From Evansella clarkii (GTDB lineage Bacteria; Bacillota; Bacilli; Bacillales; Salisediminibacteriaceae), in assembly GCF_002019695.1 (NCBI RefSeq), contig NZ_KV917376.1:3916974-3980973 (forward strand): a stretch of 64,000 nucleotides of DNA. Reading direction: 5' to 3'. The notes beneath the pieces were generated by a model that was not told the DNA's origin, made no database searches, and worked only from the letters and a program-made list of their open reading frames with translations. A program made the position numbers and the translations under genes. Positions 18,490 to 45,085 of the stretch are shown here, piece by piece; within the stretch, counting starts at the first letter, position 1, and each line of letters starts with the position of its first letter.

Positions 18490-19878
18490 TCATCTTCTTT
18501 GGCCGTGCAAGTAATCTGATACAATAAGTCCGCTTTCCAGTTGAATGCGCACGAGTTTTTGAATGGGGATCACTTCATAATTCAGCTCATTTTCCAGCTC
18601 TCTGCAATACTGTTTTAGGAGATCTTCACTTTTTTCACAGGTTTCCTTCAATTTTTCCACTGCTGCCTCAACGCTGTTGTTTTCATGCTGAAGACGTTCC
18701 AGTTCATACTCGCAAGCCCGGACAGTTAAACCTAAGTACAACCCGTTGTAAAACTTTATAGCTTTCAAATTATCAAAGATTTCTGCCACAGTAGCTGTTT
18801 TTTCAAATTCCGGATTTGATTCCGCCCACTTAATCCTCGCTTCACTGCCCTCTAAAATATGGTGAATGACTTCTTCCACAAATTTCACAAAGGGATTGTC
18901 ATCACTAACATTTGGGCGAACATCAATTAACAACTTGTCCAGTTCCCTGAAATGAGTCTGGGACTGTTTAACACTCCGCAATATAGCCTCTTTCCTTGTC
19001 AGTTCACCTTCTCTCTGATCCTCAATTTGCGGATCAAAGAAATAGGGCAGCTCTGTAAGAAGCGTGACGCAGTCCTCTTTTATCGTGGAAACATAGTCTG
19101 CGCTTGAAGTACCATTCTTTATTTTTGGCGTTTCGCCGCTGTATTCCTCCATGAAGTCATAAGCCTCGCCAATCGCCATTGTTTTAAAAACCGCTGGAGA
19201 AAATTTCTTTATGAAAGGCTCTTCCGATTCTCCTAAATTTAACGGAATACTTTGTTTTTCCGCTGTATGTCTTAGGTTATCGTATAGCTCAGGCAGGTCA
19301 TGGGAGACGTACCAGTAAGCCCCGCCGAAACCTGCATTGTGGAGCGAATACATGAAATCCGGTTTTACCTCATGCATCAGTTTCATCAATGCTTCCGTTT
19401 CCGGTAGCGGATTGTTAAAATTAAGCTCCTTATGTTGAATGGGGAATGTCCACTCCACCTGTTCATAGCCGATCGGCCGAAAATAATTTCTTGTATAGTT
19501 GTAGATGTTAAATGGTCCTTTAAACCAGTTTTCATTCAGCCGGACACCATCCGGATCGATACATTTAATTAAATACCATGTGAAGCCTGATTCTTCCCTG
19601 AACTTATCGTTTTCCGCCAAAGCACGGGATAAGTACTCCAGTGTCATCGCTCCAATCGGTTCATTCGGATGAGGACAAGCGAAGCATAATGCATTCTTCG
19701 GCCCGTCCCCAATTTTCATCGCTAAGATCGGATGACCTTTTCGTGATGTGCCAGCTTCAAATACAGTAACGATATCAGGAAACTCCTCTGCAAGCTTTCT
19801 CGAGCTTTCGTCCATTTCGGCGACAGTAAGAAAGGCTTTGTAATCGGCAACATTTTCAATAATTGATTGGAAATTCAT
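18490..19878 (-). CDS. M14-family zinc carboxypeptidase-like protein
   Basis: The 462-residue protein has the M14 zinc motif HPNEPIG (His and Glu, about residues 70-73), a substrate-binding segment DPDGVRLNENW, and the third zinc ligand in MYSLHNAGFGG (about 180). The C-terminal 180 residues are helical and acidic. No signal peptide is visible, so it is probably cytosolic and may act on peptides or gamma-linked substrates. The 52-bp repeat array starts about 50 bp upstream of its ATG, so its promoter must lie within or across the array edge. Confidence 0.8.
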   Translation of the reverse strand: MNFQSIIENVADYKAFLTVAEMDESSRKLAEEFPDIVTVFEAGTSRKGHPILAMKIGDGPKNALCFACPHPNEPIGAMTLEYLSRALAENDKFREESGFTWYLIKCIDPDGVRLNENWFKGPFNIYNYTRNYFRPIGYEQVEWTFPIQHKELNFNNPLPETEALMKLMHEVKPDFMYSLHNAGFGGAYWYVSHDLPELYDNLRHTAEKQSIPLNLGESEEPFIKKFSPAVFKTMAIGEAYDFMEEYSGETPKIKNGTSSADYVSTIKEDCVTLLTELPYFFDPQIEDQREGELTRKEAILRSVKQSQTHFRELDKLLIDVRPNVSDDNPFVKFVEEVIHHILEGSEARIKWAESNPEFEKTATVAEIFDNLKAIKFYNGLYLGLTVRACEYELERLQHENNSVEAAVEKLKETCEKSEDLLKQYCRELENELNYEVIPIQKLVRIQLESGLIVSDYLHGQRR

Positions 19879-19925: not shown

Positions 19926-21040
19926 GTTATGTGAAATCGTCTTGCGTTTCCGCTTGGACGATTTTTTTGTTCGAGCGGGTACGCGAGATCATCTTGCGTT
20001 ACCGCTTGGACGATTTTTTCCCTCGAGCGGGTATGTGAGAGCTTCTTGCGTTACCGCTTGGACAGTTTTTTCGCTCGAGCGGGCACGCGAGATCATCTTG
20101 CGTTACCGCTTAGACAGTTTTTTCACTCGAGCGGGTATGCGAGATCATCTTGCGTTACCGCTTGGACTGTTTTTTCGCTCGAGCGGGCACGCGAGATCAT
20201 CTTGCGTTACCGCTTGGACGATTTTTTCCCTCGAGCGGGCACGCGAGACCTTCTCGCGTTACCGCTTCGGCTATTTTTTCACTCGAGCGGGTATGCGAGA
20301 TCATCTTGCGTTACCGCTTCGGCTATTTTTTCACTCGAGCGGGTATGCGAGACCCTCTTGCGTTACCGCTTAAACAGTTTTTTCACTCGAGCGGGTATGC
20401 GAGCGCTTCTTGCATTACCGCTTGGACGATTTTTTCCCTCGAGCGGGTATGCGAGGGCTTCTTGCGTTACCGCTTGGACAGTTTTTTCGCTCGAGCGGGC
20501 ACGCGAGATCATCTTGCGTTACCGCTTAGACAGTTTTTTCACTCGAGCGGGTATGCGAGGCCTTCCAACGTTACCTTTCTCTTACTTTTTCAAAGAGTTC
20601 GGGCATGATGGACGCTCCAACGTTACCTTTCTCTTACTTTTTCAAAGAGTTCGGGCATGATGGACGCTCCAGCGTTACCTTTCTCTTACCTTTTCAAAGA
20701 GTTCGGGCATGCTGGACGCTCCAGCGTTACCTTTCTCTTACCTTTCCACAGAGTTCGGGCATGATGGACGCTCCAACGTTACCTTTCTCTTACCTTTCCA
20801 CAAAGTTCGGGCACGTTGGACGCTCCAACGTTACCTTTCTCTTACCTTTTCAAAGAGTTCGGGCACAATAGACCCTCCAGCGTTACCTCTCGACCATATT
20901 TCTCCCGAGTTCGGGGACGAAGCCCCCTGCGTTACGCTTCTCCAAAAAACCCCCCCAAGTTCGAGCATGCAAGGCCACCTCACGTAACCTTTCGGCAAAA
21001 TTTCCGTCTGAGCCAGCATGCAAGAACCCCTCCCGCGACC
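19926..21040. repeat. 52-bp tandem repeat array (about 21 units, two unit types)
   Basis: Landmark positions recur every 52 bp. TCGAG starts at 19971, 20023, 20075 and on to 20543 (12 A-type units). The equivalent GAGTTCGGG or AAGTTCGGG then recurs from 20595 to 20855 (6 B-type units). Three degenerate units, with spacings near 50-52, run to the fecD stop. A units share CTCGAGCGGG, an ATGCGAG or ACGCGAG segment, TTGCGTTACCGCTT and a T6 run; B units share TTCGGGCATG, CGTTACCTTTCTCTTAC and CAAAG. Both keep CGGG and CGTTACC at the same phase. The array fills the whole gap between the carboxypeptidase and permease genes. Variation within units is point-like, so this is not CRISPR. Confidence 0.95.
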
Positions 21041-21050
21041 AACTGCCAAA

Positions 21051-22076
21051 CTACTTCGTCCTCATTAACAAATATACAAAATACGGCGCGCTCAATATAG
21101 CTACGATAATACCGACCGGTATGGCTGTCGGAGCCAGCAGATTTTTTCCAATCGTGTCAGAAACCATCAAAAGCAATGCCCCGACCAGCACAGAAACCGG
21201 GATAATATATTGATGCAGCGGTCCCATGAGTTTTCGGGCAATATGAGGTACGACCAATCCCAGAAAGGCGATTCCGCCCCCTGCTGCAACAGATGCCCCG
21301 GCCAAAGCCACAGCAATCAGCAGCAATAACCTTCTTTCTGATTCTACTGATGTCCCTAAGCCGGAAGCAACGTCATCCCCTAAATTCATAACGTTTAATG
21401 AGTGGGCTTTATAAAGGGCGACAGGAATAAGAATCAGCATCCATGGAAGTAAAGCCAGCACGAAATTCCAGTTGGCATTCCAGATATCCCCTGTCAGCCA
21501 GACTGTTGCCTGCCTGAAGCTCTGTGGATCCATTCTCAGCTGGAAAATCGTCAGTAACGCGGAAAATCCTGCATTTACTCCAATTCCAACCAGCACGAGC
21601 CGGATTGCATTTACTCCTTTTTTCCAGGCAAGTACGTAAATTAGAAATGCGGCAAAAATGGCGCCCGCCAGCGCTGCCACAGGCATGATGAAAACCGCCA
21701 GCGTACTGCCCGGGGCAAACTGGCCGCTGAAGAAAAACATAAATAGGACAACTGCAAGGCCAGCACCAGTATTAATTCCGAGAATTCCAGGATCAGCAAG
21801 TTCATTTTGCGTAATCCCCTGCAAAATAGCACCGGATACAGCCAGTCCTGCACCTATTAGAAGAGCGAGAACAATTGCCGGCAGCCTGAACTGAAACAGG
21901 ACAAGCTCCTGCTGAGAGGTTCCGTTGCCAAAAATAGTTCTTACCACATCACCTGGTGAGATTTGAAAAGCACCTGTGCTTAAACTGACAAAAAACATAA
22001 TTAAAATCAAAATTAGTAAAGAGAAGATGATCACGGATAATTTCTTCGTCTTTTTAGCTGCAGATTCATTCATCAT
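21051..22076 (-). CDS. FecCD-type siderophore ABC transporter permease (YfhA-like)
   Basis: The 341-residue integral membrane protein has roughly nine to ten hydrophobic segments and the FecCD motifs LPAIVLALLIGAGLAVSGAI, GILGINTGAGLAVV and GGGIAFLGLVVPHIARKL, the last being the coupling helix that meets the ATPase. It imports ferric siderophore with the neighbouring permease. The start (ATG 22076 or 22073) overlaps the upstream permease stop by one base (TAATG), a sign of translational coupling. Its stop lies at the edge of the 52-bp array, with no separate terminator seen. Gene order resembles B. subtilis yfiZ-yfhA. Confidence 0.88.
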   Translation of the reverse strand: MMNESAAKKTKKLSVIIFSLLILILIMFFVSLSTGAFQISPGDVVRTIFGNGTSQQELVLFQFRLPAIVLALLIGAGLAVSGAILQGITQNELADPGILGINTGAGLAVVLFMFFFSGQFAPGSTLAVFIMPVAALAGAIFAAFLIYVLAWKKGVNAIRLVLVGIGVNAGFSALLTIFQLRMDPQSFRQATVWLTGDIWNANWNFVLALLPWMLILIPVALYKAHSLNVMNLGDDVASGLGTSVESERRLLLLIAVALAGASVAAGGGIAFLGLVVPHIARKLMGPLHQYIIPVSVLVGALLLMVSDTIGKNLLAPTAIPVGIIVAILSAPYFVYLLMRTK

Positions 22077-44834: not shown

Positions 44835-45085
44835 AACCATATTCATTTCTAAAGGGACGTGTTTTTCACGCGGTTCCACCCTTTTTGAAGAATATGGTCT
44901 TCCACTCAACGATTAACGGCTCGCCCGTCCTTTGTTTCATTTAAATAAACAGATTCAAAGGAAGTTCAAGGAATGTAATTCAGATTACCTTTGTATCGAT
45001 TCGCAGCTACCATCGACTCTCTGGAACAGGGAGGTAATTCCTACTGGGTTTCCTATCATAACTTTTCAGCAGTATTCAATTGTTA
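44835..45085 (-). promoter_or_regulatory. T-box leader (tyrosine) of tyrZ
   Basis: On the minus strand the AGGGTGGAACCGCG antiterminator box lies at about 44868-44882, ending in a hairpin with ACGTCCC. About 120 nt upstream is a stem I region whose internal loop includes GAATTACATTCC, with a UAC tyrosine specifier. Uncharged tRNA-Tyr would stabilise the antiterminator and let tyrZ be transcribed. The boundaries are by eye. Confidence 0.88.

Follow-up and report, generated by a model that had tools for sequence, protein, structure and literature searches.

Bacterial intergenic minisatellites mostly serve as typing markers and are often assumed to be neutral. MIRU units, near 50 bp in length, are likewise intergenic. 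As outlined in PMC3635867, the MIRU/VNTR loci of mycobacteria are dispersed minisatellites with a variable copy number, and the 52-bp arrays described here resemble them in both respects. REP sequences, as summarised in PMC3733652, are small extragenic palindromes situated mostly downstream of genes, singly and in groups, with a tag of GTAG or CGTC marking one end of the palindrome; the general character of the present units is similar. The likeness to the TAACTGA direct repeats, according to the abstract of PMC4679880, lies in an abundance of short intergenic copies whose adjacent genes have no common theme, and the likeness to the intrastrand triplex repeats TMECO (summarised in PMC4666352; 23 copies in E. 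coli MG1655) in their being structured and intergenic. Furthermore, whether hairpin-forming CTG/CAG repeats expand or contract is governed by the strand that serves as template for lagging-strand synthesis, as summarised in PMC3310812.

The array compared with these systems lies in a stretch of 64,000 nucleotides (the window), positions 3916974–3980973 of the 5.22-Mb contig of genome G000; G003 is the congener compared most closely, and G007 is another congener. It fills almost the whole gap between a gene for an M14 zinc carboxypeptidase of 462 aa (18490–19878, minus strand; ORF, Pfam PF00246), whose start codon ends at 19878, and a FecCD-type permease ORF of 341 aa (21051–22076, minus strand; Pfam PF01032), which ends at 21051. 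The carboxypeptidase start codon is 47 bp from the array, and the permease stop codon is turned toward it at a distance of about 10 bp. The nearest named carboxypeptidases, with 72–75% identity, are those of Bacillus sp. OV166, Mesobacillus, Robertmurraya, and Bacillus sp. FJAT-27251. The array of about 21 units of 52 bp reported between these genes in the preliminary description is real, and is constituted by 12 A-type, 7 B-type, and approximately 2–3 decayed units. The A-type block of about 12 units (19928–20559, plus strand; TRF, 12.2 copies with 87% matches, and unit listing) has the layout CGTTACCGCTTGG..TTTTTT..GAGCGGGYAYGCGAGA..TCTTG. The B-type block of 6–7 units (CGTTACCTTTCTCTTACCTTTTCAAAGAGTTCGGGCATGATGGACGCTCCAA; 20564–20888, plus strand; TRF, 6.2 copies with 93% matches, and unit listing) follows, and the last of its seven units is partly decayed. 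The decayed tail of about 2–3 units is located beside the permease stop codon (20889–21040, plus strand; landmarks at 20930, 20983, and 21034, and a weak HMM match). Between 19945 and 20881, the CGTTACC-type landmarks are spaced by exactly 52 bp, and the steps that follow are 49, 53, and 51 bp; the 52-bp landmarks first placed at 19971–20912 belong to the same repeat in another phase.

TRF and the unit listing uphold the early remark that no CRISPR-type unique spacers exist, and a CRISPR array was rejected, as the variable parts recur among the units and the period fills the unit entirely. A coding array was also rejected: long mechanical ORFs cross the plus strand of the A units, but no constant 52-bp peptide results, because 52 is not a multiple of three and the frame shifts with every unit. 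At the Rfam gathering score, the array has no match, and the sole match in the whole window is a T-box leader at 44850–45068 on the minus strand (131.9 bits).

The unit is an imperfect palindrome with two dyads. In the first full unit (19945–19996, plus strand; column statistics of 455 unique units), the large dyad occupies unit positions 1–39 with its centre at 20, and the small dyad occupies positions 40–52 with its centre at 46, so that the centres are 26 bp apart. Among the 455 units, the near-invariant core columns are CGTTACC, T10, TTT at 20–22, CGGG, A37, G39, and G43, and the loops are near-random. Expressed as a motif, the core is CGTTACC..T together with CGGGYATG around the small dyad, and a T-run is situated in the large loop; the unit columns thus bear out the CGTTACC and CGGG core amid a variable remainder that was initially read from the window. 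In the small stem, formed by positions 40–44 with 48–52, all five pairs occur above independence, and the dyad sum of 92 ranks first in the sweep. In the large dyad, covariation is weak or absent in the inner pairs. In an alignment of 48 units, 78.2% of the cells pair in the two-dyad structure, compared with 32–52% when the structure is slid; among 500 shuffles, one attains this percentage, whereas 31 to 199 attain the covariation measures. For the consensus of the window family, a crude dyad score taken over the whole unit is not above letter shuffles (A, p = 0.12; B, p = 0.09), and over 13 consensus units it gives p < 0.05 only for c3 (both forms) and c40, two further 52-bp families treated below.

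Both the sequence of the core and the spacing of the units are tightly kept. Between neighbouring units (457 pairs), the spacing is 52 bp in 426 cases, 51 bp in 17, 53 bp in 10, and another value in 4. In 59 mutual-best orthologous unit pairs of G000 and G003, the core differs at 22 of 1062 cells (2.1%) and the loops at 163 of 826 (19.7%), about tenfold more, a contrast that is strong but not independent, because the core columns were picked from the very units compared and the HMM prefers core matches. Two gapped flank alignments at one locus are 8% and 16% divergent (120/130 and 62/74 identical), above the core. A phased DNA-binding array, one of the roles offered in the preliminary description, is compatible with this exact 52-bp spacing and with the lower variation of the core; in addition, the period of 52 recurs in sequence-unrelated arrays of relatives.

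The window array has many counterparts elsewhere. Fetched regions of the two genomes were searched with a unit profile derived from 455 unique units of both species; an array required three units or more, or two whose bit scores together exceeded 30, and single units were left out. G000 contains at least 26 such intergenic arrays, that of the window among them, and G003 at least 25. Outside these counts are the fork-consistent B-type array at G003 746340 and the diverged 52-bp arrays of cluster c3 (G000 369732, 1837202, and 3297979; G003 1231770). A genome search with the A block gives 33 matches, and one with the B block gives 14. Among 100 genomes searched at the DNA level, only G000 and G003 match. 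A covariance model search, scoring the best 150 first-look candidates per genome, likewise matches 2 of the 35 genomes of the taxonomic family (G000 and G003), and under the same scoring limit none of the 7 other congeners or 26 other family genomes; therefore, the 52-bp family is not essential. DNA BLAST of the array against plasmids gives no match, and no name for the repeat appears in Rfam or in the literature searched, a body from which subscription journals were mostly absent.

At 21 sites, the arrays are orthologous between G000 and G003, with flanking proteins 77–100% identical, paralogue cross-matches aside. Five further arrays exist only in G000 and four only in G003, making 30 loci in total; two of the latter, at 4210844 and 4217836, are 7 kb apart with flanks alike by eye and may be one duplication. 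The unit number is unequal at 18 of the 21 orthologous pairs (for example, 24 versus 8, 14 versus 5, and 19 versus 13), and at 14 of the 21 the difference in array length is no more than 0.15 unit from a whole number. The order of the A and B blocks is retained at several sites, the window array being A12-B7 and its G003 counterpart A7-B15 by a simple typing rule. Aligned with its G003 partner, the array at G000 1694410 differs by exactly one 53-bp unit. At G000 801345, 11 units face one decayed unit at the G003 site, and a 21-bp repeat nearby has about two copies in G000 and about 20 at the G003 site; whether by expansion in G000 or collapse in G003, units change in place. Units are gained and lost whole, and such changes would be explained by slippage or recombination.

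The arrays belong to a known kind, the dispersed bacterial minisatellites, with head-to-tail units, several loci, and whole-unit copy change between relatives, and this family is a new variant within that kind. Of the early suggestion of a minisatellite with a regulatory effect on the flanking genes, the minisatellite is retained, given the whole-unit copy change; an effect on the genes flanking the window array is not supported, since the repeat has unrelated neighbours at about 30 loci. An ordinary local repeat acting in cis on the carboxypeptidase or iron-transport genes would fit a position 47 bp from one start codon and adjoining the permease stop, but the unrelated neighbours of the same family at about 30 loci make it very improbable. 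Pfam matches are found in 19 of 20 scanned flanking proteins without a shared theme, and three more proteins were scanned near one array; the neighbours include AICARFT/IMPCHase, RNase III, MurJ, ABC transporter parts, RNase_T, and GDPD. Downstream of the RNase III gene (G000 2895000–2906000), where smc would presumably be expected as in other Bacillus genomes, a 52-bp array, an EmrE-type gene, and a GNAT gene are located.

A mobile origin was also considered, in which the unit would be a REP-like palindrome spread by a Y1 transposase (RAYT/IS200-type) on lagging-strand single-stranded DNA, setting the polarity, with tandem growth later. The palindromic form of the unit, the existence of single units, and the four Y1_Tnp genes of G000 agree with this origin. 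IS608 inserts into single-stranded DNA, and insertion of this type would suit the fork polarity described below. However, the flanks of the four Y1_Tnp genes, scanned over about 3 kb, contain no unit-like sequence (best match 4.2 bits, E 1.7), and by eye the consensus of 455 units contains neither a GTAG nor a CGTC tag on either strand; CGTC is present in the small loop of some 52-bp units. Furthermore, the units have moved little recently, because 21 sites are shared between the species. With its Y1_Tnp flanks empty of units and its tag missing, the RAYT/REP origin was rejected as quite improbable.

At the RNA level, the array could be transcribed from the upstream leading-strand gene, as a 3′ UTR, an mRNA stabiliser, or a terminator cassette, or could form an antisense terminator-like hairpin stack. 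Arrays frequently start 4–70 bp past a stop codon, which suits such an element, as does the excess of pairing in the small stem. A 281-nt stretch of the window array folds at −134.1 kcal/mol on the plus strand and at −108.4 kcal/mol on the minus strand, and on either strand the fold is more stable than that of any of 200 shuffles (z −5.8 and −9.2); however, the plus strand, which folds better, runs antisense to the two flanking genes. In the small stem, G-T cells are about as frequent as A-C cells, which lends no support to pairing on one particular RNA strand. Of the 66 gene 3′ ends that face an array, 37 have a terminator-like hairpin ahead of it (19/35 in G000 and 18/31 in G003), with orthologues counted twice and a hairpin finder run without a shuffled control, and this counts against the RNA reading, whereas the other 29, among them the one at the window array, show no such hairpin. 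The sense direction of the units contains A-runs rather than T-runs, divergent and opposed loci exist, and Rfam offers no match. An intrinsic terminator, with a GC-rich stem followed immediately by a T-run, was rejected, the T-run by eye being about 4–6 nt past the stem; the terminator scan finds only two weak 5-bp sites inside the array, in B units, and 5 sites against 2.5 expected in the 1.6-kb region. An RNA of repeated folds, which the preliminary description had also offered, is thus disfavoured as a general role by the antisense folding, the equal G-T and A-C cells, and the 37 hairpins, the last point being inapplicable to the window array itself, and an RNA element of any of these types is improbable.

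The arrays have a preferred strand relative to replication. With dnaA taken as the origin (1.138 Mb in G000 and 1.929 Mb in G003) and the antipode as the terminus, the strand is consistent with the fork for 44 of the 51 arrays. Counted by locus, with each orthologous pair represented by its G000 member, 27 of 30 are consistent. For the loci, p is 8e-6 (two-sided) against 0.5, and 0.029 against the gene-bias expectation of 0.74. Gene-driven strand bias is only weakly excluded by the latter value, because 307 of 416 sampled G000 genes of at least 150 aa (74%) are leading. When the loci are hand-sorted by layout, some neighbours being short ORFs, the array fits the fork at 15 of 16 loci with both genes along the fork, 8 of 10 convergent, 2 of 2 divergent, and 2 of 2 with both genes opposed. 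As the genes themselves are fork-biased, the informative set is that of loci whose flanks do not predict the fork, where 12 of 14 fit (p = 0.013, antipode terminus). The GC skew of G000 flips near 3.4–3.5 Mb rather than at the antipode of 3.75 Mb. With the terminus placed by skew, locus 3489511 becomes a violator, reducing the count to 26/30, or to 25/30 when the mixed-strand locus is counted too; the same locus joins the opposed group, its array following its genes, so that the opposed loci give 2/3 and the unpredicted loci 12/15. Three loci violate the polarity in both species (2215391, 2383961, 3354078, and their partners), and G003 319443, with mixed strands, is a violator by majority, unlike its G000 partner. 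That the fork rather than the neighbouring gene sets the array strand is supported but not proven; simple orientation by neighbouring genes may still explain the overall bias, although the opposed loci (2/2) and the unpredicted loci (12/14) speak against it.

Strand composition is also polar. The fork-consistent arrays are A-rich on the leading strand, with a mean AT skew of 0.31 in 44 arrays compared with a background of 0.03–0.05. The folding energy of the two strands is asymmetric in the expected direction in 34 of these 44 arrays, a small difference among units that are not independent; it matches the direction summarised in PMC3310812. A pure strand-stability explanation was rejected, as only 34 of 44 arrays conform and as it also fails for the 21-bp TCAACGAAA family, which has no hairpin by eye. 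In the same genomes, hand-sorted 21-bp arrays provide an internal control: all 10 of the TCAACGAAA arrays have CGAAA on the leading strand, the 21-bp TCTCGAAAT arrays are leading in 7 of 8 (6/8 with the skew terminus), and the 21-bp TCGCCGATAA arrays are fork-oriented in only 5 of 12 (6/12 with the skew terminus). Two 21-bp arrays, 3417921 and 3608663, lie inside the doubtful terminus zone. Because the TCGCCGATAA family is not fork-oriented, fork polarity is not automatic.

Many further tandem families occupy the same intergenic DNA. TRF at a score of at least 80, coding arrays included, detects 23 arrays in 666 kb of G000, 20 in 400 kb of G007, and 10 in 400 kb of G016. Over all sampled sequence, the non-coding arrays cluster by hand count into 18 families with a base period of 30–110 that are not built from 21 bp. 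Nine of these have a period of exactly 52 bp (the window family, c3, c5, c16, c20, c23, c33, c35, and c40) and c14 has a period of 51, counts in which c3 is seemingly distant kin of the window family, c14, c16, and c20 are maybe one family, several families have only two copies, c33 shows 52 beneath a longer higher-order period, a 52-bp array at G007 112809 was excluded because it had been classed as coding, and the G000 and G003 regions were partly chosen for their arrays. The sequence-unrelated c5 family of G007 has 8 places, and at all of them it lies on the strand that the GC skew of this genome predicts (p = 0.008 against 0.5 and 0.09 against 0.74), the fork direction being taken from GC skew alone. 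A dif-like site at G007 2413546 (L249:13546), with 5 mismatches to B. subtilis dif, lies close to the point where the GC skew flips, as would suit a terminus at that position. A single intergenic 52-bp array was found among 283 kb of named loci, in Halalkalibacter okhensis (L173:4328-4484) between convergent ORFs. CCCG-N23-CGGTA occurs twice in these 283 kb, in two of the three units of that array, and is a lead rather than a test, because the motif was first noticed by eye. The count of the double-core pattern in viral contigs is 0.

Several shorter and longer repeats were also observed. A family of about 20.5–21 bp (TTTCGTTGATTG / AATCAACGAAA) with an 82-bp higher order is located at G003:C1:2204284-2204754 (L229) and at other loci in L230–L236, with CGAAA leading in 10 of 10. 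A 20–21 bp family with the core TTTCGCCGATAAA is scattered in G000 and G003 (G000 31551, 570879, 1694927, 2304295, 3417921, and others) and is fork-oriented in 5 of 12. A 32–33 bp tandem repeat, TGCTCCTGCGGTTACTCGTCGCAAAAAGAGTT, reaches 13 copies (G000 586706–586840, L235:207-341; and 4606433–4606852), and 101-bp tandem repeats with a GGTGCCAC..GTGGCACC inverted pair are present at G000 350312, 1000748, and 2420500.

Neutral minisatellites, grown from old dispersed seeds by replication slippage, with an orientation left by survivor, gene-orientation, or strand-composition bias and with no host function, are the main rival reading, unlikely but still substantial. Whole-unit copy change, the restriction of the family to two congeners, the strong A-richness on the leading strand, and the many other tandem families in the same intergenic DNA are all consistent with neutrality. 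However, the approximately tenfold lower divergence of the core, the sequence-unrelated 52-bp arrays in relatives, and the TCGCCGATAA family, lacking fork orientation in the same genomes, argue against it.

The array looks tied to the chromosome rather than to the neighbouring genes. The reading preferred here, tentatively and with slightly less than even confidence, is that the 52-bp family is a DNA-level, fork-polar chromosomal satellite with a constrained core, probably a phased array for protein or hairpin recognition. The core would be recognised by a host factor, either as a duplex palindrome or as an extruded or single-strand hairpin. Spacing by five turns would place successive cores on one helix face, and recognition on that face is suggested because the core is constrained at the five-turn register. 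Each array may thereby act as a multivalent landing platform whose polarity is met by the replication machinery or a nucleoid factor; given the fork polarity, the condition of the array while it is being replicated would seem to matter. Growth would occur by slippage at the fork, and the surviving orientation would be the one whose leading-strand template is the strand more prone to form hairpins. A broader proposal, decidedly speculative, is that Bacillales chromosomes carry intergenic arrays that evolve quickly and are helically quantised, with a period of 52 bp or of about 21 bp (the latter with higher orders of 42 and 82 bp), often replication-polar, in which the sequence would turn over while the period, the dyad architecture, and perhaps a CCCG-N23-CGGTA core persist. 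If this class exists, a replication- or nucleoid-associated factor would read register and polarity rather than the exact sequence.

Compared with the known systems, the TAACTGA repeats are heptamers rather than palindromic units of 52 bp and lie mostly directly upstream of start codons, and the abstract of PMC4679880 names no replication polarity. TMECO repeats are short motifs for which the summary of PMC4666352 reports no strand-orientation bias, in contrast to the 52-bp arrays here. CTG/CAG repeats, as summarised in PMC3310812, are likewise hairpin-prone tandem repeats with strand dependence, but they are trinucleotides, whereas the present units are 52 bp long with conserved cores. Compared with the REP sequences summarised in PMC3733652, the 52-bp units have no GTAG/CGTC tag, are absent from the vicinity of Y1_Tnp genes, and form long head-to-tail arrays in a fixed 52-bp register. 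In a comparison by description only, the present arrays differ from MIRU by their two-dyad palindromic units, constrained core, and a strand running mostly with replication. About 30 loci per chromosome, mostly vertical in descent, thus combine a constrained core, a five-turn register, and a fork-linked strand, and in a congener both register and polarity recur in an unrelated sequence. This system makes testable whether replication polarity alone can sort the orientation of a satellite, and whether polar, multivalent DNA platforms exist beyond ter, KOPS, and Chi.
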